Source: Elusimicrobia bacterium RIFOXYD2_FULL_34_15 (GTDB taxonomy: Bacteria > Elusimicrobiota > UBA8919). Taken from it: a stretch of DNA of 41,601 nt. A program made the position numbers and the translations under genes. Shown in pieces: positions 20,657 through 41,412 of this stretch. Below the pieces are notes generated by a model. The model worked only from the letters and a program-made list of their open reading frames with translations. It was not told the origin of the DNA and made no database searches. Position 1 is the stretch's first letter, and every line of letters starts with the position of its first letter. Where the stretch lies: the NCBI GenBank assembly GCA_001800605.1, contig MGVS01000052.1:7095-48695 (forward strand), given 5' to 3'.

Positions 20657-22024
20657 ATGAATTTAAAAATTAGAAAAATTTTGTTTCCAGTCGCACTTTT
20701 AATAACGGATATAATTGCGATATATATATCTTTTATTTTTGCATATTGGATAAGATTTTCTTCTACTCTTATTCCGATTATAAAAGGAATACCGCCTTTT
20801 AAATTATATCATACTGCAATTTTGGTGGTTATATTTCTCTGGATTATTATATTTTTATATACAGGTTTTTATGAAGAAAAGAAAACCGATGGGTTTAGCG
20901 AGTTTCTAAAAATTTTTAAAGGTGTGTTTTTAGGCACGATTGTGATTGCTGCGATTACTTTTATTTATAGAGATTTCACTTTTTCAAGAATGATGTTGTT
21001 TATCGCTTCAGTTGTGAGTACATTCGTTATTTTTATTTTTCATGAAATTATAAGAATTATAGATATGTATGCAGGAAATTTTTTATTAGGAACACACAAA
21101 ATTCTAATTTTGGGCAGCGGTAACATAGCAGAAGATATTAAAAAGACATTGAGGCATAGGAAAAAGTTTGAGGTTCATATTTCGCATTTCACTGATTCTG
21201 AACATTTAAAAAATTTTATAAACGAAAATCAAATAAATGAAGTTATATTTTCGAAAAGCCAGATTGCTCATAAAGAAATTCTTAAAATTGCTTCAGTTTG
21301 CGAAGATTTGAATGTTGAGTTTAGATTTGTACCGGATGTGTTGGAATTAACTCGAGGGGAAATTATAATAGACGAATTTATAGGAATTCCAGTTTTTAGA
21401 TTTAAATCGATATCATTGTATGGCTGGAATTTTATGCTTAAACGGTTAACAGATATAGTGGTATCGTTAATAATTATTACTTTTTCTATTATACCTTTAT
21501 TGATTTTAGTATTACTTATTAAGCTTGAAGATGGAGGTCCTGTATTTTACACACATAGAAGGAAAGGATATAAAGGTAAGGACTTTGAGTTTATAAAATT
21601 CAGGACTATGGTTGCTAATGCGGATAAAATGCTGGGTAATTTAAAGATTTTAAATGAAAGAAGCGGACCTGTCTTTAAAATGAAAAATGATCCGCGGATG
21701 ACTAAGATAGGAAAGTTTATAAGAATGTTTTCTATAGATGAGGTGCCACAGTTTATTAATGTATTAAGAGGTGAAATGTCGATAGTGGGACCAAGGCCTC
21801 AGGTGCTTTGGGAAGCTGCGCATTATGATGAGATTGCAATGCGCCGTTTAAAAGTTTTACCGGGAATTACGGGAATTTGGCAGATTCGCGGTAGAAGTGA
21901 TTTGTCATATGAAGAAATGATACGCCTGGATATTTATTATCTTGAAAATTGGTCAATTGCATTAGATATAAGGATAATGTTAGGTACTATACCTGCGGTT
22001 TTATCAAAAAAAGGCGCATACTAA
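20657..22024 (+). CDS. Exopolysaccharide polyprenyl glycosylphosphotransferase (WcaJ/WbaP-type PHPT)
   Basis: N-terminal TM and CoA-binding-like region; C-terminal sugar transferase: DGGPVFYTHRRKGYKGKDFEFIKFRTM, FSIDEVPQFINVLRGEMSIVGPRPQ, LPGITGIWQIRGRS. Confidence 0.93.
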   Translation: MNLKIRKILFPVALLITDIIAIYISFIFAYWIRFSSTLIPIIKGIPPFKLYHTAILVVIFLWIIIFLYTGFYEEKKTDGFSEFLKIFKGVFLGTIVIAAITFIYRDFTFSRMMLFIASVVSTFVIFIFHEIIRIIDMYAGNFLLGTHKILILGSGNIAEDIKKTLRHRKKFEVHISHFTDSEHLKNFINENQINEVIFSKSQIAHKEILKIASVCEDLNVEFRFVPDVLELTRGEIIIDEFIGIPVFRFKSISLYGWNFMLKRLTDIVVSLIIITFSIIPLLILVLLIKLEDGGPVFYTHRRKGYKGKDFEFIKFRTMVANADKMLGNLKILNERSGPVFKMKNDPRMTKIGKFIRMFSIDEVPQFINVLRGEMSIVGPRPQVLWEAAHYDEIAMRRLKVLPGITGIWQIRGRSDLSYEEMIRLDIYYLENWSIALDIRIMLGTIPAVLSKKGAY

Positions 22025-22153: not shown

Positions 22154-22169
22154 TTTGCAAGGAGTTAAT

Positions 22170-23195
22170 ATGAAAGCGATGATTTTAATAGGTGGATTTG
22201 GTACCAGGTTGAGACCTTTGACGTGTAACACTCCAAAACCTCTTTTACCGGTTATAAATAAGCCATTTTTACTTTATCAGATAGAACTTATTAAGAAGCA
22301 TGGCATTAAAGATATTATTTTGTGTATGGCTTACTTGCCTTTGGAGTTCAAGAAATTTTTCGGTGACGGTAAAAAATTCGGTGTAAATATATCTTATGCA
22401 ATTGAAAAGATGCCTTTGGGTACCGGTGGGGCATTAAAAAATGCAGAAAAATTCGTTGATTGTCCTGTTTTAGTATTCAATGGAGACGTTTTGACAGATC
22501 TTGATTTAACCGAGCTTATAAAATTTCATAAGCAAAAGAAGTCCAAAGCTACCATAACATTAGTAGAAGTGGCTGATCCTACTAGTTTTGGTTTAGTTGA
22601 AACAAATAAAAATGGCAATATCCTTCAATTTTTGGAAAAACCATCGTTAAGCCAAATTACCTGTAATACAATAAATGCCGGAACTTATATTTTTGAACCT
22701 GAAATTTTAAAGGAAATACCTGAAAATACTGTTTATTCCGTAGAAAGAGGGCTTTTTCCCAATTTATTAAATAAAAAGTTTCCATTTTATGGATTTGTCT
22801 ATTCAGGTTATTGGATAGATATAGGTACTACCGAGAAATATTTTCAGGTTCATCACGATTTAATGAACAAAATGAAAAAAAATATTATAGGCAAAGATTC
22901 TAAATTAAGTAAGACTGTAAAAATAGAAGAAGGAAGATTAGTAATTGGAGATAACTCAACACTTGGTGAATCAACAATAATTGAAGGAAATGTTTGTATT
23001 GGTAACAATGTCGATATAGAAAATAATTGTAGTCTTATAGACTGTATAATTTTAGACGGAACGAAAGTGCAGGAAGGCAGTAAAATAGAAAAATCATTGA
23101 TAGGTAAAAACTGTTTAGTGGAAACGAATTCTATTCTAAGCAGCGGTTGCGCAATAGGCGATAATACTATAATAAGGAGTTACAGCAGATTATAA
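22170..23195 (+). CDS. Sugar-1-phosphate nucleotidyltransferase, probably mannose-1-phosphate guanylyltransferase
   Basis: MKAMILIGGFGTRLRPLTCNTPKPLLPVINKPFLLYQIELIKKHG; FNGDVLTDLDL; C-terminal left-handed beta-helix repeats. ATG 22170 with AAGGAG; track start is TTG 22155. Confidence 0.85.
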   Translation: MKAMILIGGFGTRLRPLTCNTPKPLLPVINKPFLLYQIELIKKHGIKDIILCMAYLPLEFKKFFGDGKKFGVNISYAIEKMPLGTGGALKNAEKFVDCPVLVFNGDVLTDLDLTELIKFHKQKKSKATITLVEVADPTSFGLVETNKNGNILQFLEKPSLSQITCNTINAGTYIFEPEILKEIPENTVYSVERGLFPNLLNKKFPFYGFVYSGYWIDIGTTEKYFQVHHDLMNKMKKNIIGKDSKLSKTVKIEEGRLVIGDNSTLGESTIIEGNVCIGNNVDIENNCSLIDCIILDGTKVQEGSKIEKSLIGKNCLVETNSILSSGCAIGDNTIIRSYSRL

Positions 23196-23337: not shown

Positions 23338-23670
23338 ATGAAAATTGTGAAAAAGCCCTGGGGGCAAGAAACTTGGTTTGCGTTTACTAAATATTATGTA
23401 GGGAAAATACTTTTTATAAAAAAAGGACATCGTTTAAGCAGACAGTTTCACAGAGTAAAGCATGAAACCATTTATACTCTTAAAGGAAAATATATAATGG
23501 AATTAAGAAATAGTAAAAAAATAATGAAAGAAGGCTCGGTAATAGTTATCCCGCCTAAAAAGATACATAGAATGTATGCAAAGTATGGTGATATAACTTT
23601 AGTTGAAGCATCAACACCTCAGGTTGAAGATGTTGTGCGTTTGGAAGATGATTATGGAAGAAATAAATAA
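23338..23670 (+). CDS. Cupin; type II mannose-6-phosphate isomerase C-terminal-like
   Basis: KPWGQETWFAFTKYYVGKILFIKKGHRLSRQFHRVKHETIYTLKGK...VIPPKKIHRMYA. Confidence 0.82.
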   Translation: MKIVKKPWGQETWFAFTKYYVGKILFIKKGHRLSRQFHRVKHETIYTLKGKYIMELRNSKKIMKEGSVIVIPPKKIHRMYAKYGDITLVEASTPQVEDVVRLEDDYGRNK

Positions 23671-25045
23671 AATCAAATTTGGTACTGATGGCTGGCGAGG
23701 TATAATAGCGAAAGATTTTACATTCAGCAATATAAGAATTGCTTCGCAGGCAGTATCGGATTATATTAATTCAGAATTATACGATTCTAAATATGCTAAA
23801 TCTGTTATTATCGGTTATGATAACAGGTTTCTTTCTGAGAAATTTGCAAGTGAGGTAGCAAGAGTTATAATGGCGAATAATATTGAGGCTAAGGTTTCTA
23901 AAACAGCCGTAACTTCGCCTTCTATTTCTTTATTCTGCAAAGAAAATAATTGCTTGGGTATAATGATAACCGCAAGCCATAATCCTCCTATTTGGAATGG
24001 CTTGAAAGTTAAACTTCAATATGGCAGTTCGGTGTCTCAGGAAGTAATCAATAAGATTTCAGATTTTCTTTATAAAAATAGTGTTAATACCGGAAATAAA
24101 GAAATTATATTTGTGGATGTATTGAATTCTTACAAAAAATATCTTAAATCAATGGTTAGTATTAAATCGCTTTTAAAATTGAAAATTGTCATAGATTCTA
24201 TGAATGGCAGCGGTGCAGGGATTTATGAGAGTTTTTTTAAGAAAGAAAAAATATATTCAGTTAGAAATTACAGGGATCCTATGTTTTCAGGTGTGAATCC
24301 TGAACCGATAGAGAAAAATCTAAACGAACTGAAAAAAGAGATATTAAAAAACAATGCAGATGTGGGTTTTGCTTTTGATGGTGATGCGGATAGATTAGGT
24401 GTGATAGATGATAGAGGGCGTTATTTACCGCCGCATATCGTATTTCCTTTAATATTATTATATTTGATTGAGGGTAGAAAGTTAAAAGGAAACATTGTGC
24501 AAACTATTTCATTGGGTTACATATCCGAAAGAATTGCTAAAAAATATTCTATACCGCTTGAAGAGGTTTCCGTCGGATTTAAATATGTTTGTGAAAAAAT
24601 GCTAATAAAAGACGTTTTACTTGGCGGTGAAGAATCTGGCGGATATGGCTGGAAAGGCGGAATTCCGGAAAGAGACGGAATATTGAATGCGCTTCTATTG
24701 ACAGAAATGCTGATAAAAACAAAAAAGAAATTATCATTCTTAGTTGATGATATGCAGAAAAAATTTGGAAAATCTTGTTATATGAGAAAGGATATAAAAT
24801 TAAAACAACCTGTAGATAAAGAAAAATTTACTAATAAAGTTAAAGAAATAATAAGTAAAGAAAAAAATATAAAAGAAATCAGAGCTTATGATGGAATAAA
24901 AATAGTTTTTGACAATGATAGCTGGCTATTACTAAGGCCATCCGGTACTGAACCGGTTCTAAGGACTTATTCTGAGACGGAATCAGTTAACAATACAAAA
25001 AAACTTCTTGATTTTGCGGAAGAAATTTGTTTAAATCTTTTATAA
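23654..25045 (+). CDS. Phosphoglucomutase/phosphomannomutase family protein
   Basis: KIKFGTDGWRGIIAKDFTFSN; MITASHNPPIWNGLKVK phosphoserine loop; AFDGDADRLGVID; GGEESGGYG; RPSGTEPVLRTYSE. Internal ATG 23654 preferred over track start 23603. Confidence 0.9.
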   Translation: MEEINKIKFGTDGWRGIIAKDFTFSNIRIASQAVSDYINSELYDSKYAKSVIIGYDNRFLSEKFASEVARVIMANNIEAKVSKTAVTSPSISLFCKENNCLGIMITASHNPPIWNGLKVKLQYGSSVSQEVINKISDFLYKNSVNTGNKEIIFVDVLNSYKKYLKSMVSIKSLLKLKIVIDSMNGSGAGIYESFFKKEKIYSVRNYRDPMFSGVNPEPIEKNLNELKKEILKNNADVGFAFDGDADRLGVIDDRGRYLPPHIVFPLILLYLIEGRKLKGNIVQTISLGYISERIAKKYSIPLEEVSVGFKYVCEKMLIKDVLLGGEESGGYGWKGGIPERDGILNALLLTEMLIKTKKKLSFLVDDMQKKFGKSCYMRKDIKLKQPVDKEKFTNKVKEIISKEKNIKEIRAYDGIKIVFDNDSWLLLRPSGTEPVLRTYSETESVNNTKKLLDFAEEICLNLL

Positions 25046-27891: not shown

Positions 27892-27985
27892 AAGACAAGT
27901 TAAAAGTATAAATTAAAATAAAAAAACAGAAAGACTTAATTTTAACTTTTGATTTAAATTTTGATTGCCTTTATTGGGGGGTATT

Positions 27986-29857
27986 ATGAAAAAAAACAGT
28001 TTATTACTTGTTTCTATTTTAACTTTTATAACTTTTCCGCCACTGATTTTATGGCGGACCCGCCAACGGCTCAGTGGCGGGTTACTTTTCACCCCGTTTA
28101 GAAAATTAACAGAGAGAATAAATAAAATATTTAAACCTGTAGAAAATAAAATATATCATTGTTTTATAGTAATTACATTTTTGTATTTTCTAACGGGGTT
28201 AACTTGCCTCTATTGCGAGTCTTTTAAAATTCTTGGAACTCGACCTTTGGGAATGGGCGGTGCATATGTTGCCATAGGTGAAGATGCTATTACTCAATAT
28301 TGGAATCCAGCCGGTCTTGGTATTGGTTCTGATGTTGATGTACAATTACCTTTTACCGTTCAAGCGGAATTAACAGGTGACATTCTTGGTTCTGCAGATC
28401 GTCTTTCAGAGCTTGCCGAGCAATATTCACAGATATCAACTGCTCAAAAATCAGGAAAAGCAATATCGCTAAGTCAGTTAAGTGCGTTTATTAAGGGTAT
28501 TAAAGAATTAGAAGACCTTAATGACCCCAAAAAAGGAGTACTTATAAATGCAGGTGCAGGTGGAAATATAAGGATAAAGAATTTAGCGTTTTCGGTAAAC
28601 AATTTTACTTCAATTAGCACAGATCCGAGCGTAGATATAAAAAATTTGGGTTTGGGTGCCGGAAGTTTTTCTCCGGAGATGAAACGTGCAATTTATAGAG
28701 CTGAAAGTTACAGCGGAGTGGATTTAGGTGAAATTGTGGATAGTTATAATACTACATATGCAGCAGAACATCCCGGACAGAATATTTTTGATGCTCCTAC
28801 TGACCCTACGCTTCAAACATCAGCAAATACTTTATCAACAGGAATTTTAACAGATATTACAGCAAATCTTACAAACCTTGGAATTGATACGACAATAACT
28901 GCAACTATCCCTCTAGGAATGACAGTCGAACAGGCTCTTGCAAATGCAATTGTAAAAGCCGCCACAGATCCTACAATTGCTGCACAATTAGGTTCTACAG
29001 TTTTAACTCCTGCAGAGGTTGCAGATTATGTTCAGCAGATTGAAGATATTAGGCCATTAGTAGTTAGCATCTTAACAGGTGCTACGTCAGGTTCATCATA
29101 TGCAAAAAACCAGTCTAACTTTACAATTCGCGGAGCATCAACATTTGAAGCATCTTTGGGATATGGCAGAGAGGTTCCGTATGTACAGACAGAAACATTT
29201 CTAAAAGGTATTTTAAAAGGACTTTATGCAGGTATAAATATCAAATATATAAAAGGTTATGTTGCATATCAAAAAATAGAGGTTCTTAGAGATACTGATA
29301 CAGATTTATTGGCAGATTTTAGAAATAATCAGCAAGCTTCCAATTCTTTTGGTTTGGATTTAGGTTTCTTATTGCAAAAAAGGTTTTTTGATAGAAAAAC
29401 TAATTTTGGAATTTTAGTGAGAAATATCAATCAGCCAACATTAGATATGCCGGTAGCTGCTACTAATAACGGAGAAGGTTCAAAATATGAAATTGATCCA
29501 CAGGTAAGGGGTGGAATAGCAGTTTGGCCGTTTAACTGGTGGACAGTATCAACAGACATTGATTTAACAAATAATTTTACAGCACTTCCAAAATATAAAT
29601 CCCGTTTGTGGGGTTTGGGTAACGAATTTAATCTTGTGAATAAGCCATGGCTTAACTTTGCATTGCGTGCCGGTTTAATGAAAAATATGGCAGAATCTAC
29701 ATCAAAACTTGCTTATACAGGCGGTTTTGGAATAAATATTATGCATTTCGTTATCGATGCCGGAGTTGCTATGTCTTCCGATAGGGTTGAAATAAGTGAT
29801 GGCACAAAAGTACCTTCTTCAGCAGCCGGCGCAGTAACAATATCATTCGATTTCTAA
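27986..29857 (+). CDS. Outer-membrane beta-barrel-like protein of the PorV/TraF_2 type
   Basis: FKILGTRPLGMGGAYVAIGEDAITQYWNPAGLGIGSDV is the PorV/TraF/UPF0164-like N-terminal motif; C-terminal strands end in aromatic ...AAGAVTISFDF. Confidence 0.75.
   Translation: MKKNSLLLVSILTFITFPPLILWRTRQRLSGGLLFTPFRKLTERINKIFKPVENKIYHCFIVITFLYFLTGLTCLYCESFKILGTRPLGMGGAYVAIGEDAITQYWNPAGLGIGSDVDVQLPFTVQAELTGDILGSADRLSELAEQYSQISTAQKSGKAISLSQLSAFIKGIKELEDLNDPKKGVLINAGAGGNIRIKNLAFSVNNFTSISTDPSVDIKNLGLGAGSFSPEMKRAIYRAESYSGVDLGEIVDSYNTTYAAEHPGQNIFDAPTDPTLQTSANTLSTGILTDITANLTNLGIDTTITATIPLGMTVEQALANAIVKAATDPTIAAQLGSTVLTPAEVADYVQQIEDIRPLVVSILTGATSGSSYAKNQSNFTIRGASTFEASLGYGREVPYVQTETFLKGILKGLYAGINIKYIKGYVAYQKIEVLRDTDTDLLADFRNNQQASNSFGLDLGFLLQKRFFDRKTNFGILVRNINQPTLDMPVAATNNGEGSKYEIDPQVRGGIAVWPFNWWTVSTDIDLTNNFTALPKYKSRLWGLGNEFNLVNKPWLNFALRAGLMKNMAESTSKLAYTGGFGINIMHFVIDAGVAMSSDRVEISDGTKVPSSAAGAVTISFDF
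28037..28081. repeat. GC-rich palindrome inside the N-terminal coding region
   Basis: CCGCCACTGA...TCAGTGGCGG perfect 10-bp outer stem with inner TGGCGGacCCGCCA; near-copy at 30003..30047. Confidence 0.88.
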
Positions 29858-29889
29858 CCCAATTTTTTAAAATAGTAAAAATGGGTTAA
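29855..29889. terminator. Possible stem-loop after the outer-membrane protein gene
   Basis: aacccaattttttaaaatagtaaaaatgggtt forms an ~11-bp stem with one bulge; no clear downstream U-tract. Confidence 0.4.
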
Positions 29890-29962
29890 AAAAATCTTAC
29901 CATATTAAGAATCCAATCAATATAATATTGCATCATAATATATATAAGAAAGAAAATATTTA

Positions 29963-30106
29963 ATGAAAAAAATAAATGCTTTAATAACTATTATAACTTT
30001 TTCCGCCACTACTTCTATGGCGGACCCGCCAACGGCTCAGTGGCGGGAACTTTTTTATCCCGTTAGAAAATTAAATAATATCATTTATAATCACTTGGAT
30101 ATTTAA
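29963..30106 (+). CDS. Putative 47-aa leader ORF with signal-peptide-like sequence; overlaps the next start (TAATG)
   Basis: MKKINALITIITFSATTSMADPPTAQWRELFYPVRKLNNIIYNHLDI*; not in the supplied track. Most of the middle is encoded by the palindrome at 30003. Confidence 0.4.
   Translation: MKKINALITIITFSATTSMADPPTAQWRELFYPVRKLNNIIYNHLDI
30003..30047. repeat. GC-rich palindrome, near-copy of 28037..28081
   Basis: CCGCCACTacttctaTGGCGGACCCGCCAacggctcAGTGGCGGg. Confidence 0.88.
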
Positions 30107-31968
30107 TGAAAAAAAAATATGGTTATTATGTAATTGTAATTTTTATGTATTTTCTAACGGGACTTACCTACCTTCATTCTGTTCCACACATAAATGGCAG
30201 AAACCCTGGTCCCAAAGAATACGTTAGAAGAACAAAACAAATAAAAACAGTTAAAGGTGCGGTTTCAAAAACAATAACCGCAACTGGTGCGCGAAAAATT
30301 GCTATCATAATGGTTAATTTTGCTTCAGCCGGTACAAGTACTTCAGGTAATGAAATAATGTCATCTGACGATATTAGAGGTCTCAATTATAATTTTTCAT
30401 ACTTAAGAAACTTTTATTTAGAAGCATCGTATAGAAAATTAGATATAGAAATAACATTTTTTTTCTCAACAGGTTCTGCATCTTCGCTTAGCGGAAATGA
30501 AACCCCTTTTACATTGTCTACTCCGATGTCGACATACGGGCAGGATACAGATGCCTCGCTTTCTCAACTTATAATGGATTCAATAAATATCTGCGGTCAA
30601 GTAAATTCAATAAACTTTGACGGTGTAATGGTTGTGCACGCCGGATACGGTAATGAATCAACGAGTAATGATGGCGATATATGGGCTGCGTATGTTGGAC
30701 CTTTTGCGAATACATACGGTTTTACCGAAGGTACAAATGTCCCTGTAAAAGAATCCGGTGCAAGTCCTATAGGGGTAACTTGCCATGAATTTGGTCATCA
30801 CATAGGTTTGTTTGATTTATATTCTACGGTTACTAGGGGAGCCACGCAGGTTGGGTTTTGGTCTTTAATGGATTATGGTGTTTGGCAGGGGAGTGTGCAG
30901 GGTTCAAATCCTACACATCCATCCGCCTGGGAAAAAAAATCGTTAGGATGGCTTGAATTTGTTGAAATATCTTCGGGAACACATAATTTAGAAAGTTTTG
31001 CTTTTGAAACAAGTTCAACATCGGTATACAAACTTAAATTAATTGATACCGAATCGGAATATTTCCTTGTTTATCAAACATCTAGAACCGCTTTTTCACC
31101 GGCACCTTCAGGGAACAACGGTATTTTGATATGGCACATTGATGAAGGAATAATTGACGGTACTACCCTTAGCGATAGAATGGCTACCAATTCTTTAAAT
31201 AATTTTTCTCACAGAACAGTTAGTGTAGTTCCGGCGAATGGTATCGATCCTTCGGCAAATTTTGGTGATTTTGGCAATTTGTGGCCTGGTAAAAAAGTAA
31301 TTTTTACAGCTCCGTTATCAAATAAATATAATGGACAAGAGACTATGTTAACAGTTTTTGATATTAATAACCTAATACAATCATCACAATTTAAAGCTTC
31401 TTATAAACCTTTTATACGAGGTTTTGTAAAAGATTCGGCTGGTGTTGGAATAGAAAGTATTAATGTTGCGTTAACCAAAACGAACTTTGTAGATGTTACA
31501 GTAACTGATAAAAACGGTTCGTATGTATTTGCTAATTTAGAAAATGGAATTTATGAAATTAGACCGGTAAATGCTAATCTAGAATTTGTTCCAACGAGCA
31601 AAATAATTTCTATAGTAGATTTGCCGTTAAGCAATAATAATTTTGCAGGAATTGCTGTAAATACTTTTGCAAACCTTACAGAAAAATCAAATAATATAAA
31701 AGCGGTTAATAATCTATTTGTCCCAGGACAAGAACTGTCTACGATATATTATAAGATAGCTAAAGATGGAAATGTTACTATAAAACTTTATACACTTGAC
31801 GGTAAATTTATAAAGACCCTGGTCGATGAATTTACGTCTGCAGGGATAAATTCTATAACTTGGGATGGAAAAAATCTTAAAGATAATGAGGTGGCTTCCG
31901 GGATCTATCTTGTTCATATCGAAGCTCCCGGTTTTAAATCAACAAAAAAAATATGTGTGATAAGATGA
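30106..31968 (+). CDS. Secreted M6-family metalloprotease with carboxypeptidase-regulatory-like domain and T9SS type-A-sorting/FlgD-like C-terminal domain
   Basis: Signal peptide; zinc motif TCHEFGHHIGLFDLYS; GFVKDSAGVGIESINVALTKTNFVDVTVTDKNGSYVFANLENGIYEIRP; tail VTIKLYTLDGKFIKTLVDEFTSAGINSITWDGKNLKDNEVASGIYLVHIEAPGFKSTKKICVIR. Confidence 0.88.
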   Translation: MKKKYGYYVIVIFMYFLTGLTYLHSVPHINGRNPGPKEYVRRTKQIKTVKGAVSKTITATGARKIAIIMVNFASAGTSTSGNEIMSSDDIRGLNYNFSYLRNFYLEASYRKLDIEITFFFSTGSASSLSGNETPFTLSTPMSTYGQDTDASLSQLIMDSINICGQVNSINFDGVMVVHAGYGNESTSNDGDIWAAYVGPFANTYGFTEGTNVPVKESGASPIGVTCHEFGHHIGLFDLYSTVTRGATQVGFWSLMDYGVWQGSVQGSNPTHPSAWEKKSLGWLEFVEISSGTHNLESFAFETSSTSVYKLKLIDTESEYFLVYQTSRTAFSPAPSGNNGILIWHIDEGIIDGTTLSDRMATNSLNNFSHRTVSVVPANGIDPSANFGDFGNLWPGKKVIFTAPLSNKYNGQETMLTVFDINNLIQSSQFKASYKPFIRGFVKDSAGVGIESINVALTKTNFVDVTVTDKNGSYVFANLENGIYEIRPVNANLEFVPTSKIISIVDLPLSNNNFAGIAVNTFANLTEKSNNIKAVNNLFVPGQELSTIYYKIAKDGNVTIKLYTLDGKFIKTLVDEFTSAGINSITWDGKNLKDNEVASGIYLVHIEAPGFKSTKKICVIR

Positions 31969-32030
31969 TAAAAATAAGTAACGAGTAACGAGTAATGGGT
32001 AATGGGTAAAGAGTAACTGATAAAAATGAA

Positions 32031-33443
32031 ATGAAAACTATTAAAATGTTTTATAAAATAATTATTATTCTTTCATGTTTATTAACTGGGTTTAATTGCC
32101 TTTATGCTAAGGGTGCCGGAAGCAATTCGGGCGAAAATATATTACAGTCACCGGGAGTAAGACAAATGGGGATAGGCGGCGGTGGAACTGCCGTCAGTGG
32201 CGATATATATTCAATCTATCAGAATCCGGCGGGTATTTCAATTATATCTGAAAAACAGGTGTCATCAGTTTTAGAAAACGGGCTAAGTAATGATTACAAA
32301 GCTTCAATTGTTTTTGGCCATGGTGTTAGTGGACAGAATAAGTATGGAATTGCTTTTGCCGTTTCATATTTTAACGGCGGACCCATGGAAATTAATTATA
32401 TCGACGGTACTTCTAAAAATGTTCTTTCTCAATCAGATTTTCTAGCTATGCTTGGCTGGAGTATGTATACAGCATCAAACATTTCCATGGGGTATAATAT
32501 AAAATATTTATCTTCACAACTTATAGAGAATTATAATTCTTCTGCAGTAGCTTTTGATGCCGGTATTATAGCAGAAAATACAACTAATAAAAGATTAAAG
32601 CTTGGGCTTGCTGCGCAGAATTTTGGAACTTCTTTAAAATATAGAAGTAAAAAGGAAACGCTACCGGCATTGATTAGGGGTGGTCTTTCATACATTATAC
32701 CTATAGATACTAAAAGTTCACTTCTTACTGTAATTGATGGTTTCTATTTGATTGATGAAAGTAATTTTTACAAATCTTTAGGTGCTGAATATTCTATGAG
32801 TGATAGATTTTTTTTAAGGGGTGGTTTGAAAATCTTACCAGATAGACGCAGTTTTACTTTTGGCATGGGTTTAAAATTGTATGAAAAATATAATATTGAT
32901 TTAGCGTCTGAACCCAATTCAATTAATAATATATATAAAGTTTCTTTTACAATGAAGTTTGGGGGTATTGAACATGCAGGGTCTAAAGTGATAGGGCAAA
33001 AGCAGGAGTTATCAAAACTTGAAGAAGAAAAAAAATATGAATATGAAAATATTATGGAAAAAATTGCGGTTGTAGATTTTGAAGGTAAAAGTGTTTCTCA
33101 CACAGATGCATCCATTGTTACGGATTTTCTGAGAACAGAACTTGTCAACATTGGTGCTTTTAATATAATCGAAAAGAATAATATGGATAAAATTTTAGCA
33201 GATGCTTTATTCCAGCAATCAGAGTGCTCAACTTCCGACTGTGCAGTTGTAATTGGCAAAATAGTGAATGTCAAAAAAATATTGATTGGTTCATTGTCGA
33301 AAACGGATGATGCGTATTTTTTAACAGTCAATCTAGTTGAGGTTGACACCGGTAAGGTAATAAAGTCTGAAGATTCTAAAGCATATTCAATCGAAGAATT
33401 CAAAGATATTAGTAAGAGTATAGCTCAGAGAATCAGCCAATAG
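32031..33443 (+). CDS. PorV/PorQ-like outer-membrane protein with C-terminal CsgG-like domain
   Basis: Signal peptide, then QSPGVRQMGIGGGGTAVSGDIYSIYQNPAGISII (PorV-like) and barrel strands; C-terminus EKIAVVDFEGKSVSHTDASIVTDFLRTELVNIGAFNIIEKNNMDKIL...ADALFQQSECSTSDCAVVIGKIVNVKKILIGSLSK is CsgG/DUF2380-like. Confidence 0.8.
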   Translation: MKTIKMFYKIIIILSCLLTGFNCLYAKGAGSNSGENILQSPGVRQMGIGGGGTAVSGDIYSIYQNPAGISIISEKQVSSVLENGLSNDYKASIVFGHGVSGQNKYGIAFAVSYFNGGPMEINYIDGTSKNVLSQSDFLAMLGWSMYTASNISMGYNIKYLSSQLIENYNSSAVAFDAGIIAENTTNKRLKLGLAAQNFGTSLKYRSKKETLPALIRGGLSYIIPIDTKSSLLTVIDGFYLIDESNFYKSLGAEYSMSDRFFLRGGLKILPDRRSFTFGMGLKLYEKYNIDLASEPNSINNIYKVSFTMKFGGIEHAGSKVIGQKQELSKLEEEKKYEYENIMEKIAVVDFEGKSVSHTDASIVTDFLRTELVNIGAFNIIEKNNMDKILADALFQQSECSTSDCAVVIGKIVNVKKILIGSLSKTDDAYFLTVNLVEVDTGKVIKSEDSKAYSIEEFKDISKSIAQRISQ

Positions 33444-33575
33444 TTTAAACAGTTCAAAGTATATAGTTCAAAGTTCATAGATAAAAAGAGTCCATAGTAA
33501 TTGGTTTAAGAAAAATATAATACCATGAACTATGAACCTGCCTGCCGGTAGGTAGGCTCAAAACTATGAACTTTT

Positions 33576-34646
33576 TTATTTTTCGGTTCTGTAAATCAAT
33601 ATAGTAGCGAGGGTTAAAAAAATAACATTAGGTATCCATGCAGCCAAAATAGGACTCAGTGTTCTATTCATACCCAAAGCAAATCCAACCGATACGGCGC
33701 CCCAATAGATAAATCCTGTAAAAATTGAAATAGTAAATGAAAATATTTTAGCGGTTCTTGCTGTTTTTATTGCAAAAGGGATTCCTAGAAAAATCATTAT
33801 TAGATTTGCAAAAGGTTTTGCAAATTTAGAATATTTATGCACCGTCTCCTGATGCGAGGGGATTCCTGATTTTTTTAATCTTGAAATCAAAACTGAAATT
33901 TCCTTGTAAGACATTTCATCCGGATTTTTCTTTACATTAATAAATTCTGACGGTTTTTTTTCAAAAGTAATTTTCGTTATACGATATTTTTTTATTTCAA
34001 ATCTATTATTGTTGAAATTTCCTATTGAGGCATCTAGAAGTTCGAGCGAATTATCTTTCCAATGAGCTTCTTTGGCAGTTATTTTTTCAGTTATATTCAT
34101 TCCTTCATCCAATCTCATTATAATAAGACCCGTAATCCGCTGTGTATCACCGTCAATTATTTTTGCTGAGAAAATGCTGCCTTTTTCCATTTGAACAACA
34201 TTAAATCCTTTGTTGGGTTGTTCCTTCTGTTTTGTAATTTTGTAATTCCAAATTTTATTGAATTTTTTATTTGACTTGACCAAAAATGAGTCGTTAAAAA
34301 AAATGAAGAAAAGAGTTATAGCAATTCCGGCAATAATTATAGGTTTTGAAATTCGTAAAATACTGATTCCTGAGGTTCTTAATGCTGTGATTTCATTATT
34401 TCTTGCTAAATCACCTATAGAAAAAAGTGTTGCAAGCAATGCGGCTACGGGAAATATAAGTGAAATCCAGTTGGGCAATGAGTAGAAAAGTGATAAAAGG
34501 AAAATGGAGATTGAAGCATTATTTTTAAAGACAACATTAATTCTGTCGAAAATATAGGTTATACAAATAATAATTAAAAAAACTATCGATGCCATAATCA
34601 GCGATTTTAAAAATGTCTTTGAAAGATATTTATCTACAATTTTCAT
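33576..34646 (-). CDS. lptG: LPS export ABC transporter permease LptG
   Basis: YjgP/YjgQ-family permease: MKIVDKYLSKTFLKSLIMASIVFLIIICITYIFDRI; RNNEITALRTSGISILRISKPIIIAGI. Start at 34646 overlaps lptF stop (ATGA); track start 34709 is too long. Confidence 0.85.
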   Translation of the reverse strand: MKIVDKYLSKTFLKSLIMASIVFLIIICITYIFDRINVVFKNNASISIFLLSLFYSLPNWISLIFPVAALLATLFSIGDLARNNEITALRTSGISILRISKPIIIAGIAITLFFIFFNDSFLVKSNKKFNKIWNYKITKQKEQPNKGFNVVQMEKGSIFSAKIIDGDTQRITGLIIMRLDEGMNITEKITAKEAHWKDNSLELLDASIGNFNNNRFEIKKYRITKITFEKKPSEFINVKKNPDEMSYKEISVLISRLKKSGIPSHQETVHKYSKFAKPFANLIMIFLGIPFAIKTARTAKIFSFTISIFTGFIYWGAVSVGFALGMNRTLSPILAAWIPNVIFLTLATILIYRTEK

Positions 34647-35731
34647 TTTTTTGAAATATTTAACAACAATAGGATACCGGTAAACCCAACAATAATATTC
34701 GGGATCCAAACAGCTATCATGGGATTGATTGCACCTCTTTTTCCAAGTGTTGTTCCAGTGACCAATATTATATAATATATAAACATAATTATAATAACAT
34801 TTGTAATACCCAAACTTTTAGTTCTTTTTTTAGTGAAAGAAATAGAGAGAGGAACAGCAACAAATACAAAAATAAGTCCGGCAGAAGCAAGTACGTTTCT
34901 TAGGTGAAATTCGGTAAGATAGAAGTTTTTAAATTCAGGTGAACCGGTTCTAGCTTTATTTAAAAGTTCTTTTGATTTTAATTCCCGCATTCCTCCTTCT
35001 CTATTGGCAAGGAAATCTGTGTTTTGAATTATTTCAAGAAACATCTCGTTTTCGGAAAAGTTACATAAATTAAATTCGCCGCTTTTTTTAGGATTTTCCT
35101 GCAATATTTTACCATTATATAAACGGAATAATATACCTTTATCTTCTGCAACAGTCATCTCGGCTCTTTCTGCGGTAGTTATGGTTGGAAGATCATCTTT
35201 CCACTTATAAATAATAATTTTTTTTAATATATTATTTTTAGATATTTTTTTTACATAAATATCATAGTTTTGTATCTGAACAAAATTTTTCTCTGAAAAT
35301 TGCATAATAGGATTTTTATAAAGTATTTGGTAATAAAGTGTTTTAAATTTTGAATTTAATATAGGTATCAGAGAGGAATTAAAATAAAACATTATTAATG
35401 ATAAAAAAAGTGAAATTGTGATTATTGGTTTAATAATTGTTAGTATCTTTATTCCGGATGTGCGAATAGCTAAGATCTCATTATCTTCACTCAAACGGGA
35501 GAAGAGCAGTATTGTGCCGGAAAGTATTGACATCGGCATAGTGAACATAAAAAATGATGGTAAAATGTAAATAAAAAGCTTAATAGTATTTATCAATCCG
35601 GCACCTTTGTTTAACAGTAAATCAGATAAGTCAAAAAGTAAGTCCATAAGCAGGATAAATGTAAATACCAAGAGCGATGTTAAAAATTTGGGAATAAATT
35701 CTTTTATTAAGTAACGATTAATTATTTTCAT
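34643..35731 (-). CDS. lptF: LPS export ABC transporter permease LptF
   Basis: MKIINRYLIKEFIPKFLTSLLVFTFILLMDLLFDLSDLLLNKG; LSEDNEILAIRTSGIKILTIIKPIITISLFLS. Confidence 0.85.
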   Translation of the reverse strand: MKIINRYLIKEFIPKFLTSLLVFTFILLMDLLFDLSDLLLNKGAGLINTIKLFIYILPSFFMFTMPMSILSGTILLFSRLSEDNEILAIRTSGIKILTIIKPIITISLFLSLIMFYFNSSLIPILNSKFKTLYYQILYKNPIMQFSEKNFVQIQNYDIYVKKISKNNILKKIIIYKWKDDLPTITTAERAEMTVAEDKGILFRLYNGKILQENPKKSGEFNLCNFSENEMFLEIIQNTDFLANREGGMRELKSKELLNKARTGSPEFKNFYLTEFHLRNVLASAGLIFVFVAVPLSISFTKKRTKSLGITNVIIIMFIYYIILVTGTTLGKRGAINPMIAVWIPNIIVGFTGILLLLNISKK

Positions 35732-35754
35732 AAAAAAAACGGTATTGTTATTAT

Positions 35755-35875
35755 AAGAACGTTGAAAAAGTACTAAATCGCTCTTGAGTACACAGATACT
35801 ATCGTCGTGCCTTAATCTGTGTAATCTTGTTTTTAATCGGTGTAATCAGAGATTGTTGTGTTTTTCAACAATCTC
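35755..35875 (+). repeat. Palindromic intergenic element, copy A (121 bp)
   Basis: AAGAACGTTGAAAAAG...; GAGATTGTTG-tgttttt-CAACAATCTC perfect 3' hairpin; same length and ends as copy B; flanked by ATTAT on both sides. Confidence 0.9.
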
Positions 35876-35891
35876 ATTATATAAAAAGTCC

Positions 35892-35920
35892 TTGACAAAT
35901 ACAAGTTTTTTAGTTATAAA
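35892..35920 (+). promoter_or_regulatory. Sigma70-like promoter
   Basis: TTGACA (35892..35897), 17-bp spacer, TATAAA (35915..35920). Confidence 0.7.
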
Positions 35921-36144
35921 TATAAGAGTGGTATTGGTAACAAGCGGCAGTAATAAACATAGTTAAGAGTTCATTGTTTTAAGTCAGAAGCTATTATTAT
36001 TTACTAATTATTTATTGTAGACTATGAATATTAGTTTTTGCTATGTTACCGAAACGATAACAATTAAAAGTTAGTGATTGAAAATTGCGGTAATTATTTA
36101 CCTCATATTTTAATTTAATATTTTAATTTTTAATGACTTAACGT

Positions 36145-36180
36145 CCGAGTTTTGGTAGCATTACACTCGGTCTTTTTATT
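36145..36180 (+). terminator. Intrinsic-terminator-like hairpin upstream of the SprA-like gene
   Basis: CCGAGT-14 nt-ACTCGG followed by TCTTTTTATT. Confidence 0.6.
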
Positions 36181-36210
36181 ATTTGTGTGTTTAAAGTTAG
36201 TTTAAATTAA

Positions 36211-39200
36211 ATGAAAAAATACCTTATTTTTATATCAATTTCCTTAATTCTATTAGCATCTGTATCCATATTATTTGCAGAAGAATCTTTTAGTGCTGGT
36301 GATTTTGATATTGATGATTGGCAACAGATCAGGAAAGAAAAAGAAGAAAAGACATTTAAAGAAGAGGAAATAAAAATTGCAGCACCTGAATCTCTTCAAG
36401 TAAGTTCAGCGACAAAAACTTCCGGACCTTCTCTGCGTTCGATACTTTCAGAGGGTATAGAATTCCCCTATGAGTCAAAGCTTGAGGTTACAGATTTTTC
36501 AGGGATATCAGGAATTTCAGGAAGAAAGTTTATAGGAATGAAATATTCTGTAACGAAATATCTTCATAAAGACGAAAATAATGTTTCCAGTAATAGAAAT
36601 TTAGGCACCAGCGGTTTTGAGTTAAATCAACAGCTTCAGGTTAGAGTAAAGGGAACAATTAAGAAAAAAATAACTGTAAATGTTGATTATGATGATACTG
36701 TTGAAAATAAAAAAGATATTTCAATTATGTACAGGGGTGATCCGGAAGAATTAGTTCAGGAGGCAGCATTTGGTGATATTACACTTTCGTTACCTGGTAC
36801 AGAGTTTGTATCGTATAATAAGGCAGCTTTTGGTGCTATGGGTAGGCTTAAGTACAGAAAAGCAAATTTATACGGTGTTTTTTCAAGAACAAAAGGTACA
36901 ACAGAAATAAAACGTTTTAGCGGAGCCACAACTTTTGAAAAAAGAGATATAAACGATACTTCTTATCTAAGAAGAAAATATTACCGATTGAATTTAGATT
37001 CGTCTCACCTTCCTATAAAACCGGGTACTGAAAAAATTTATATTGATGATAGAATTGCCACTAATAATACAATTCTTACTTCTACAATCACCGTATCAAT
37101 ATTTGGTGTGCCTAATTCTACTTTTTCAATAACGGCAGATCTTTTATATTCCGGAAGTGATTATACAATTGACTATGAAAAAGGTATTATTATTTTCAAG
37201 AAGTCTATAAATCAGAATTTTATAATTGCAGTTGATTATGAGAAAGAAGACGGCACAAGAGTTATTGATGACAATCCTTCAAGCACATATAAAATGATAA
37301 AAGATGAAAACGAGACCCTGGCATACGAATTAAAAAACTATTATTCTATTGGTCATACTAAAATTGTACGCGACGATAATAGGGGCAACTTTATTTTCAG
37401 AGTTTTAGATTTAAACAGGACGCAAGTTCTTATCATTGGAACTACCAATGTTGCATATCCTGGTTTTGTTGAAGTGGATTTTGAAGCAGGAACATTCAGG
37501 TTTACGGATGGCAAGGGTAATGATGTGGAGCCTTTTCCTTCAACAGTATATACAAATTCCCCGACAAGAAGTTTTATAATTTATATAGAATATAGATATA
37601 GAACAAAATCATATCTTGTAAGACCTAATATAATTCCGCAATCAGAGAAGATATTAATGGATGGTAGGACATTGATTAGGGACCAGGATTATTTTATGGA
37701 TTATGATTCCGGTTTCATTACATTTATGAATGAAGAAAAAATTAATGATTCAACATTAATAGAAATAACATATGAATGGGCACCTTTTGGCGGACAAATG
37801 GACCAAACGGTAGTTGGGGTTCGCAGCGAATACGCTCCGTTTGATAATATATCTATAGGCTCTACATTCTTATATAATTTTCCTGCAAAACCGCTTACTT
37901 CTCCCGATGTGCGTTCTACCCCGGAGAGCATTTCGGTTTACGAGGTAGATACAAGAGCATCATTTAACAATGTACCTTTACAACCGGTTATATCCGGAGA
38001 GTATGCGGGCAGCACAAGAGATCTTAATACGTTCGGAAACGCACTAATTGAAAATATGGAAGGTGTAAAGCAGGCAGATATTATGCCTACTGATAGGGAT
38101 TCATGGAAAATATCATCTAATCCTACATCTGATGTGACAACAAAAGATTCATTTGTATGGGGAAATATGGATGTAAAAAATGGTGATATAAATCCTTCCG
38201 TTCCGGAAAGGGAGCGTGATTCAACACAACAAGTGTTGAGTATTAATTATAAACTTAATGCCGGTAAAGAAGCATCTCTTATTTTTCCAATATCAAAAAT
38301 AGGTGTTGATTATACCAAAAAGCTATTTCTTGATTTCTGGATGTACGGCGATAATTCAGGCAATAATATTAATATAGCAGCCGGTTCTTTAAATGAAGAT
38401 TCAGATAATGACGGAATACTTGAAAGTGAAGATAAAAATTCAGATGGTATTTTAAATCCGGGTGAAGACATCGGAATTCTTTTTCACCATCCCGACGGTC
38501 AAATAACTATAATAGGAGCAAACAACGGCAAAATAGATACAGAAGACCTTGATGGCGATGGAGTATTAAGAAGAAATGATAATATATCAGGTAATTTTGA
38601 TATATCAAATTTTACTAATTCAGATGGTTCTATAGGATTTAAAGATGAATCAGGTATAGTTTATAACAGCATTTCCTGGACTGGTTGGAAACATTTCATA
38701 GTACCGCTTGGAGATGTTACAACTTGGGAGACTGTGAAACAAATAAGATTGACTATCAAATCAAACTTTGGTGATACTATACTTAGAAATATTGAATTTA
38801 CGCAATTGTCTTTTGTGGGAAATAAATGGGAAAAACCTACAATTTTTGGTACTGGCGAGATGACAGCAACCGGTATAAACAATATTGACAACACGGGTTA
38901 TGTTCCGTTGTATGCACAATTTCCGTCAGTTTATAAAGATTTGTATAATCTAGGAGCAATTGATTTAGACCAAAAAAAAGAGCAAGCATTAGCTTTAAGA
39001 TATACTCTTGACAGTGGTTCTACCGGCACTACTAAGGTCGTTTTCTCTAATTCTGCAGATTATTCCAAACATAAAGAACTTACATATTTTTTATGGGGGA
39101 ATGAGGCTAAGGGTGCTACATTTGCAATACAATTTGGTGCAGATTCGGCATATTATGAGCATAGAATAATACCTAATTGGATAGGTTGGAAAAAAATAAC

Positions 39201-41412
39201 CTTAAGATTAGTTGATATAAACAAGGATTCAAAACCTGATACCATCACAAGTGACGAAGGAATTATTAGCATCGTTGGTAATCCTTCGCTTACTAATATA
39301 TCACAAATAAAAATTCTTGTCCGGAACGATACCGCATTTCAAATCAAAGACGGTGAAATTTGGCTGGATGAAATATTTTTAGATCGGTCCTGGCAAATAA
39401 CAGGATTTGCAACCAGGGAAAATGTAGATTTTACCATTCCGGACTGGACAACTTTTGGCGGAAGATACAAATTTGTTAACCGTGATTTCCAGACACTTAC
39501 GACTCAAATATCAAACCAGGATAATGAAGAAATGTCTGCTTATTTTAATATGCCCCAGATTTGGGTTCTGAAACCTTCTTTTCTTAGCTGGATTTCCGTC
39601 CCTCTTAATACTTCAGTTTCAAAAACATTAACAACAACACCTTCATCTTTTCAGACAGGAGATCCAAATTTAGTTTCTATTCTATCTCAGGGAAAGGTTG
39701 TTTCAGTCTCAGGTAACGCTTCAACATCAGTTACAATCCCCTTATTACCCAGGGTGGGCGGATCTTATTCAAAATCGATAACAGATTCAAATAGTATATC
39801 ACAGCGTGATGAAACCAATACATTTAACGGGACTATTGATTATGTTAATCCAATAAAACTTTACATAACCCCGAACAATATATCCGGATCGATTTCAAGA
39901 ACTGATGCATACAGAGGAAAAACTCGGGAAAAGTTTTCTAATTTCAGGGATTTATTGCAAAAAACAACAGACTGGGAATTATTGACATATACTAATGAAT
40001 ATTCAGGGCAAACATCTTTCACACCATTAGGATGGACTGATTCTTGGTTTGGCATACAACAATTTTCAAATCTTTCCCTTGTACCAAACTATAAATTTAC
40101 AGTAATAAGAGAAAAAAAACGATTATCGATTGAAGAAGATACTGACTATCCAAAAAGTGATGCACAGTCAGCGTCTTTATCAACATCATTCAGTGTGTTC
40201 CCGTGGTTTCAGCCGTCAGCATCTTACAATACAACAATTAACCAATCTTACAACTTGAGCTCTTCAACATCTCAGCTTACAGGTCCTGCAACAGGTCAAA
40301 TTGAAGCTAAAACAAAAAATATAGAAAGAACTTCGGGAGGAAATGTATCAATTGCATTGACACCAAAAGATATAATAGATTTTAAACCTATTAACTCTCT
40401 TTCATTAAATTCATCGTATGAAATTTCTGATGGGGATTCGTATGAAAATGTTAGAAAACAATCATATATTTATAATAAACTTTGGATTAGAAAATCCTTA
40501 TCGTTGAATAATTTTGAGGCAAAAAGAAAGTCATTGACTATATCTGATACCTATAGGGTAAATGCCAGATGGCTGCCTTTTGAATTTATTAACTTTGGCG
40601 GAAGATTATCACCTATAAGTACAATCAATACATCGTCAGCCTTTTCAAAAACTGACAGAAATAGTGAAGTAACAGGTACAAGAAGCCGTTCAATAACAAG
40701 AAACTGGCCTGATGTTTCTGCCGGAATAACAGAAACTGAAAAAATATTATTTATTGAAAAAGTGATTTCTGATACCCAGGCAAATTTAAGATATACTAAA
40801 AGAACAAATAGTGATTTTTCTTTTGGTGAAGAAACTAAATTATCACGTTCGATTTCAAATTCTTATGATTACAGGTTTAATATTATAAAAAAATTCGACT
40901 GTTTTACCTCATATAGTGTTTCTACAGATTTCAATAAAGCTGTTCTACAAGATAAAGTTACAGGCGATGCAAAATCGCAAAGTGCGGCATTTCAGGTGGG
41001 TTATAGAATAAATGACCTTAGGTTTACTCCAAGGTATGACTGGAAAAAAGATTTTTCTGTAGATGGTACACCAACAATATTACAAGATGCTGTGAATCAT
41101 GCTTTTTCAATGGGAATTAATTATGATGTATCAAAGCCGATTACCTGGAAAATACCATTTACATCTACAATATTAGATCTAAAAAACAGACTAACAACTA
41201 CTACTAACATAAAATATGCAAGAAATATAGATAGACGTGAAGCAAACAATAATACTGATACCTATTCGCTATCTCTAAGCGGGGACTATACGATTTCAGA
41301 TAATCTCAGGGTAGACCTTGGCTCATCAGGATCGCTTTTTAAAAACCGTAACAGAAAAGAAGATGATTACTACACTTTAGAAATCTCCGCAGCACTTACC
41401 ATAACATTCTAA
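36211..41412 (+). CDS. SprA-like giant outer-membrane protein (T9SS translocon family)
   Basis: Signal peptide MKKYLIFISISLILLASVSILFA; SprA-type motifs FELNQQLQVRVKGTIKKKITVNVDYDDTVENKKDISIMYRGDPEELVQEAAFGDITLSLPGTEFVSYNKAAFGAMGRLKYRKANLYGVFSRTKGTTEIKRFSG; LDFWMYGDNSGNNINIAAGSLNEDSDNDGI; strand-rich C-terminus ending TLEISAALTITF. Confidence 0.8.
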   Translation: MKKYLIFISISLILLASVSILFAEESFSAGDFDIDDWQQIRKEKEEKTFKEEEIKIAAPESLQVSSATKTSGPSLRSILSEGIEFPYESKLEVTDFSGISGISGRKFIGMKYSVTKYLHKDENNVSSNRNLGTSGFELNQQLQVRVKGTIKKKITVNVDYDDTVENKKDISIMYRGDPEELVQEAAFGDITLSLPGTEFVSYNKAAFGAMGRLKYRKANLYGVFSRTKGTTEIKRFSGATTFEKRDINDTSYLRRKYYRLNLDSSHLPIKPGTEKIYIDDRIATNNTILTSTITVSIFGVPNSTFSITADLLYSGSDYTIDYEKGIIIFKKSINQNFIIAVDYEKEDGTRVIDDNPSSTYKMIKDENETLAYELKNYYSIGHTKIVRDDNRGNFIFRVLDLNRTQVLIIGTTNVAYPGFVEVDFEAGTFRFTDGKGNDVEPFPSTVYTNSPTRSFIIYIEYRYRTKSYLVRPNIIPQSEKILMDGRTLIRDQDYFMDYDSGFITFMNEEKINDSTLIEITYEWAPFGGQMDQTVVGVRSEYAPFDNISIGSTFLYNFPAKPLTSPDVRSTPESISVYEVDTRASFNNVPLQPVISGEYAGSTRDLNTFGNALIENMEGVKQADIMPTDRDSWKISSNPTSDVTTKDSFVWGNMDVKNGDINPSVPERERDSTQQVLSINYKLNAGKEASLIFPISKIGVDYTKKLFLDFWMYGDNSGNNINIAAGSLNEDSDNDGILESEDKNSDGILNPGEDIGILFHHPDGQITIIGANNGKIDTEDLDGDGVLRRNDNISGNFDISNFTNSDGSIGFKDESGIVYNSISWTGWKHFIVPLGDVTTWETVKQIRLTIKSNFGDTILRNIEFTQLSFVGNKWEKPTIFGTGEMTATGINNIDNTGYVPLYAQFPSVYKDLYNLGAIDLDQKKEQALALRYTLDSGSTGTTKVVFSNSADYSKHKELTYFLWGNEAKGATFAIQFGADSAYYEHRIIPNWIGWKKITLRLVDINKDSKPDTITSDEGIISIVGNPSLTNISQIKILVRNDTAFQIKDGEIWLDEIFLDRSWQITGFATRENVDFTIPDWTTFGGRYKFVNRDFQTLTTQISNQDNEEMSAYFNMPQIWVLKPSFLSWISVPLNTSVSKTLTTTPSSFQTGDPNLVSILSQGKVVSVSGNASTSVTIPLLPRVGGSYSKSITDSNSISQRDETNTFNGTIDYVNPIKLYITPNNISGSISRTDAYRGKTREKFSNFRDLLQKTTDWELLTYTNEYSGQTSFTPLGWTDSWFGIQQFSNLSLVPNYKFTVIREKKRLSIEEDTDYPKSDAQSASLSTSFSVFPWFQPSASYNTTINQSYNLSSSTSQLTGPATGQIEAKTKNIERTSGGNVSIALTPKDIIDFKPINSLSLNSSYEISDGDSYENVRKQSYIYNKLWIRKSLSLNNFEAKRKSLTISDTYRVNARWLPFEFINFGGRLSPISTINTSSAFSKTDRNSEVTGTRSRSITRNWPDVSAGITETEKILFIEKVISDTQANLRYTKRTNSDFSFGEETKLSRSISNSYDYRFNIIKKFDCFTSYSVSTDFNKAVLQDKVTGDAKSQSAAFQVGYRINDLRFTPRYDWKKDFSVDGTPTILQDAVNHAFSMGINYDVSKPITWKIPFTSTILDLKNRLTTTTNIKYARNIDRREANNNTDTYSLSLSGDYTISDNLRVDLGSSGSLFKNRNRKEDDYYTLEISAALTITF

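Follow-up and report, generated by a model that had tools for sequence, protein, structure and literature searches.

The mechanism by which SprA and PorV export proteins in the type IX secretion system (T9SS) has been established for Flavobacterium johnsoniae, in which PorV and its cargo are believed to be drawn off SprA by the motor (PMC10994853). In Bacteroidota, a single PorV serves all type A C-terminal tails, and cognate shuttles encoded downstream of the cargo are a feature of type B tails and PorP/SprF (PMC12618676). A 2016 survey found T9SS in Bacteroidetes only and warned that unknown systems could remain (PMC4793230), whereas a 2024 paper extended T9SS to the phyla of the Fibrobacteres-Chlorobi-Bacteroidetes (FCB) group and stated that its genes are absent from other phyla (PMC11285876). 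TIGR04183 tails have also been reported in Poribacteria, for which the authors found no Por system or structural genes (PMC3909097). Here, we describe a T9SS-like set of genes from Elusimicrobia bacterium RIFOXYD2_FULL_34_15, starting from a stretch of 41,601 nucleotides of contig MGVS01000052.1 (positions 7,095 to 48,695; hereafter the window). The source is a metagenome-assembled genome (MAG) of the Elusimicrobiota, outside of the FCB group. We found no description of T9SS parts in Elusimicrobiota in the literature, subscription papers being outside the search, and priority is unproven.

A first-pass annotation of the window had proposed a compact T9SS-like module in a lineage that may not be classical Bacteroidota. 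All its open reading frames are present where it had placed them (Table 1), and the relatives of the genome are indeed Elusimicrobiota. Our comparisons make it probable that tail-bearing proteins are exported through the outer membrane by SprA and PorV in a T9SS-like manner, as judged from sequences and structural models. The T9SS-like character of the proposal was therefore retained, but not its compactness, since the translocon, about 30 shuttle genes and about 54 cargo genes are scattered over the genome, many of them as cargo–shuttle pairs.

An SprA-type translocon in Elusimicrobiota

The 1733-aa protein that had been annotated as SprA-type matches the NCBIfam model TIGR04189 (SprA) with an E-value of 4.8e-40 and 136.8 bits. 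Searching the PDB with this single sequence gave no match; a profile built from 16 relatives matched just two distinct PDB sequences, both of them F. johnsoniae SprA (E = 1e-29), over residues 130–242, 488–568 and 791–1143, in this order. These blocks being collinear with F. johnsoniae SprA, the difference in length between the two proteins is spread along the chain. In Foldseek, an AlphaFold model of residues 60–1200 (52 sequences, mean predicted local distance difference test score, pLDDT, of 81) retrieved SprA structures as the top four PDB matches (8gl6, 8gl8, 6h3i and 6h3j; E = 5e-50), the next non-SprA match being at 1.7e-5. For a model of residues 1081–1733 (50 sequences, mean pLDDT 86), the first PDB match was again SprA (E = 6e-10), followed by generic outer-membrane barrels. 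The N-terminus resembles a signal peptide and the C-terminal strand ends in F. By its sequence profile and predicted fold, the protein is thus an SprA-type barrel, and the first-pass annotation's requirement of an SprA-like fold is borne out. It is shorter than the roughly 2400 aa expected, as had been noted, yet about 1730–1900 aa is the usual length of SprA in Elusimicrobiota, with no local truncation. A weak match to Pfam CBM_11 inside the protein was discarded as a local β-sandwich resemblance, which Foldseek also detects.

Sorting tails and PorV-family shuttles

A type A-like signal had been recognised at the C-terminus of the M6 protease of the window. As a C-terminal sorting domain (CTD), this tail scores 26.9 bits with TIGR04183 (type A; cut-off 23), and it also exceeds the cut-off of FlgD_ig (32.1 versus 27 bits). 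In this genome, Pfam FlgD_ig has 30 matches, of which 29 sit at the extreme C-termini of unrelated proteins. The remaining match, on C69 (L065), was dropped as a tail because it is followed by 264 residues, with an OmpA-type domain at the end of the protein. The first-pass annotation had tied its proposal to the presence of other proteins with the same tail, and a profile built from 16 tails retrieved 54 of them in this genome (the 55th match being the OmpA-type protein of C69). The 29 tails found with FlgD_ig finish with, for example, KKIAVIK or KKGKLAIIR. TIGR04183 is matched by all 16 sampled tails (E ≤ 0.001), the PorU model by 15, the PorZ model by 13 and the best-matching FlgD model by nine. 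In the PDB, the tail profile found the CTDs of PorZ, of PorU and of a T9SS substrate bound to SprA, and also FlgD. Some cargo proteins exceed the cut-offs of Pfam PF18962 or PF13585. The domains found in tail proteins include M6 protease, glycoside hydrolase family 2 (GH2), LamG, Kelch, sortilin-like propellers, PKD and fn3 arrays; judging from these domains, the tail proteins would be surface enzymes and adhesin-like proteins.

The two PorV/TraF-type proteins reported in the window were both recovered with family profiles (Table 1). They belong to a set of about 30 PorV-family genes in this genome (32 PorV matches); the family model NF033709 is exceeded at 19 places, including 32031–33443, and the cut-off of the stricter PorV equivalog NF033710 is missed (67 versus 250 bits). 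For 25 of the 54 tails, a PorV gene in the same orientation follows within 1.2 kb downstream, which accounts for 25 of the 32 PorV matches, whereas 0.42 such pairs are expected in this genome; gene maps give 22 immediate tail–PorV neighbours. The upstream neighbour was uninformative as a control, since the cargo gene itself fills that space. At least 29 further pairs were found in 14 other genomes (0.3 expected, median gap 144 bp) and, among the matches listed, none was on opposite strands within 3 kb.

In a tree of the tails, most unlinked tails fall into two tight families, HVYPNPFKP...KKGKLAIIR and VYAYPNPAKNG...KKIALIK, which branch near the linked tails encoded on contigs C94 and C87. Distances between tails correlate with those between their partner PorV proteins (Mantel r = 0.66, p = 1e-4), although mostly through four recently duplicated pairs; without recent duplicates, the correlation is weak (r = 0.25, p = 0.024). 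Because of the 25 linked pairs, and because the unlinked tail families each lie near a linked pair, type A-like tails seem, from gene order and phylogeny, to have dedicated PorV shuttles. Such pairing of cargo and shuttle is a new feature for tails of this type.

The tails could also be structural Ig/FlgD-like domains that have nothing to do with sorting, their pairing with PorV being an accident of operon structure. Their resemblance to FlgD Ig domains counts against a sorting role, the tail profile matching FlgD in the PDB with slightly better E-values than PorU and PorZ. We consider this explanation very improbable, as the tails sit at the extreme C-terminus behind unrelated N-terminal domains (protease, GH2, LamG, Kelch, fn3), match TIGR04183 throughout the sample and form 25 pairs where 0.4 are expected.

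Distribution among Elusimicrobiota

A scan with one genome per species, of which the best 80 of 162 relatives were kept, returned genomes nearly all named Elusimicrobia or Endomicrobia. Searched with the SprA-like protein, 58 of 61 relatives gave a match, in one copy and mostly of full length; with the SprA profile, matches were found in 194 of the 202 near-complete Elusimicrobiota genomes. A gene that is near-universal and single-copy in relatives is not there by chance. The commonest neighbours of sprA across the phylum are LptF/LptG-type genes (divergent, at −1/−2) and comF (+1); this conserved setting and the near-universal presence of sprA speak for vertical descent in Elusimicrobiota rather than for transfer from Bacteroidota. 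The T9SS-like export pathway is likely to be ancestral to Elusimicrobiota. In two reduced genomes (G020 and G186), SprA is left as weak partial matches, which suggests that the system is decaying in intracellular symbionts. Two MAGs named 'Clostridia bacterium' (L107 and L109) carry an Elusimicrobiota-type sprA and are probably misnamed.

Tails tend to be absent where SprA is absent: five of the eight SprA-less genomes among the 202 have none, versus seven of the 194 with SprA (Fisher p = 1.5e-5). A single family, some members of which have reduced genomes, accounts for seven of these eight; they have 0, 0, 0, 0, 0, 1 and 1 tails, whereas the SprA-bearing members of the family mostly have 3–11 (p = 3e-4); tails are nearly absent from Endomicrobium-type genomes without SprA.

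Several observations weigh against a T9SS-like pathway, and the p-values above are themselves optimistic, as the genomes share ancestry and are not independent. G144, a genome in 170 contigs, encodes 24 tails but gave no match to SprA, an assembly gap being the probable cause. Conversely, some genomes of family f4 encode SprA and PorV-family proteins but no detectable tail (G017, G021, G080, G086 and G087); tails may have diverged there, or SprA may have other cargo. Finally, the score of the SprA-like protein lies below the TIGR04189 equivalog cut-off of 200 bits, and Pfam SprA_N (PF14349), which the first-pass annotation had suggested as a check, has no match to it at E ≤ 0.1.

Genomes with SprA and no detectable tails, as well as the frequent proximity of LptF/LptG-type genes, would fit a barrel devoted to another envelope task, e.g., the handling of lipopolysaccharide (LPS) or other large polymers together with LptF and LptG, the tail proteins relying on their PorV partner alone for export or anchoring. 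This seems improbable to us: homology and fold designate a translocon of proteins that is known to work with PorV and to have this type of tail as its ligand, and tails are scarce in SprA-less genomes. In addition, in termite-gut Endomicrobium-type loci, the cargo, PorV, sprA and comF genes are consecutive on one strand, without lptFG. In five loci of Endomicrobium type (L128, L134, L137, L139 and L147), the corresponding PorV-like protein is longer, with a C-terminal part that looks TPR-like by eye.

Search for motor, ring and sortase

The other T9SS components give further grounds for caution. GldL and GldM profiles, run on the 61 genomes without a positive-control genome, gave nothing above cut-off. 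The best matches of both are spurious: for GldL, a coiled-coil protein of repetitive sequence (E = 1.8e-5, in one genome) and, for GldM, a match lying over ordinary cytosolic genes. GldN was found in none of the 61 genomes, the control genomes being silent too, and PorK/GldK, PorT, PorW/SprE, PorE and PorP were not searched for. Peptidase_C25 (PF01364), the gingipain/PorU-type domain, was detected in a single genome out of 61, as two partial matches (G005:C83:8486-8974 and G005:C55:15182-15640). The first-pass annotation had seen no PorL, PorM, PorN or PorU in the window; this is correct and goes beyond the window, as, these C25 pieces apart, no homologues turned up in any of the 61 Elusimicrobiota genomes. 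The energy supply and the anchoring at the surface must therefore differ from those of Bacteroidota or be too diverged for recognition and, given the role of the motor in F. johnsoniae (PMC10994853), what would drive export in Elusimicrobiota becomes the main question.

We see an even chance that the phylum as a whole uses a T9SS-related export pathway without the PorL/M motor, the ring and the sortase, or powered by something unrelated (a Tol/Exb-type complex, for example), and with a separate PorV-family shuttle for each class of type A-like tails. Such a pathway could be an ancestral, simpler T9SS, or its motor could have been replaced. A less likely explanation, though one to be taken seriously, is a complete but highly diverged T9SS, with motor, ring and sortase beyond the reach of curated Bacteroidota profiles. 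Since SprA itself falls below its curated cut-off, other parts may do so as well, and the silence of the GldN search in control genomes and the lack of a genome with known PorL/M as positive control point the same way. Nevertheless, SprA, PorV and the tails were all detected at E-values of 1e-30 or better, or as large families, whereas the weak GldL and GldM matches do not recur consistently among relatives and C25 pieces are confined to one genome. As the three defining parts were found and motor and sortase were not, we classify the system as a T9SS-like, apparently motor-less variant, and not as a member or a demonstrated T9SS.

Genes of the window

The features of the locus are given in Table 1. 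An in-frame TTG at 27965 precedes the ATG of the first PorV/TraF-family gene. The M6 protease has a signal-peptide-like N-terminus and the zinc motif HEFGHHIGLFD ahead of its sorting tail. The PorV-family protein encoded after it carries an additional CsgG/LpoB-like domain at its C-terminus and matches PorV in the PDB (6h3i_F; phmmer, E = 9e-4). The lptG and lptF genes between this gene and sprA had been overlooked in the first-pass annotation. The gene order V-T-(V)-lptG-lptF-sprA (V, PorV-family gene; T, tail gene) is kept in several related genomes.

Table 1. Features of the T9SS-like locus, in coordinates of the window.
Feature	Position	Strand	Characteristics
PorV/TraF-family outer-membrane protein	27986..29857	+	623 aa from ATG; PF13729 TraF_2 E = 2.6e-25; NF033709 E = 1.6e-14, below cut-off
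M6-family metalloprotease, putative cargo	30106..31968	+	PF05547 E = 4.7e-13; TIGR03296 E = 2.8e-30, just under cut-off
Type A-like CTD of the M6 protease, with stop codon	31684..31968	+	TIGR04183 32.9 bits, domain alone
PorV-family shuttle, directly 3' of the M6 cargo	32031..33443	+	NF033709 PorV_fam 130.7 bits, cut-off 90
LptG (LPS export permease), sprA neighbour	33576..34709	-	TIGR04408 222.7 bits; PF03739 E = 6e-79
LptF (LPS export permease), sprA neighbour	34643..35731	-	TIGR04407 181.6 bits; PF03739 E = 3e-76
SprA-like outer-membrane translocon, 1733 aa	36211..41412	+	TIGR04189; PDB profile matches; Foldseek

Positions 1–25045 of the window are occupied by a long co-directional polysaccharide/nucleotide-sugar cluster, possibly for the synthesis of a surface glycan. 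It encodes glycosyltransferases, a polymerase-like membrane protein (10331–11608), a sugar-phosphate transferase (20657–22024), a nucleotidyltransferase (22155–23195) and a phosphoglucomutase-like protein (23603–25045), and is followed by MetK and AhcY-like genes.

Proposed pathway and comparison with known systems

The part of a T9SS-like export pathway encoded by the locus would be its outer-membrane half. The M6 protease and other cargo, to judge from the signal-peptide-like N-termini, would cross the inner membrane by Sec. By homology, the PorV-family shuttle would then receive the C-terminal Ig-like tail on its extracellular loops, within the SprA-like barrel, and would take the cargo out via the lateral opening of the barrel. 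Each of the many PorV paralogues encoded directly after a cargo gene would serve that tail subclass, and the large unlinked cargo families presumably use the shuttle of their nearest linked relative. Export itself, the cognate nature of the pairs and the replacement of lost parts are our inferences.

If Elusimicrobiota as a phylum use the SprA–PorV–CTD core without PorL/M, the motor would not be an intrinsic part of translocation, unless the energy comes from elsewhere, which bears on the role of the proton-driven motor. Having the gate, the tails and the shuttles without a recognisable motor or anchoring enzyme, Elusimicrobiota would provide a natural test of motor function, and their cargo–shuttle pairs a large natural set for learning the specificity between tail and shuttle.

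The system resembles the Bacteroidota T9SS (SprA/Sov, PorV and type A CTDs) in its homologous translocon, supported by profile and fold, its PorV-family shuttles and its CTDs matching TIGR04183. It differs in its occurrence in a phylum outside FCB, in the length of SprA (about 1730–1900 versus about 2400 aa), in the roughly 30 PorV paralogues of this Elusimicrobiota genome, most of them paired with cargo genes, and in that homologues of GldL, GldM, GldN and PorU-type proteins were not found in the 61 genomes.

As with the type B CTD cargo and PorP/SprF of Flavobacterium, the shuttle gene lies directly 3' of the cargo gene, and the sharing of one shuttle by orphan cargo, shown for Flavobacterium type B, is proposed here for Elusimicrobiota (PMC12618676). 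Unlike in Flavobacterium type B, type A-like CTDs are combined with shuttles of the PorV family, the PorP/SprF family not having been searched for. Like Poribacteria (PMC3909097), Elusimicrobiota combine many TIGR04183-type tails with a position outside Bacteroidota. Unlike in Poribacteria, a translocon and shuttles were found, and they indicate a possible export route for TIGR04183-tailed proteins in phyla without a recognised Por system.
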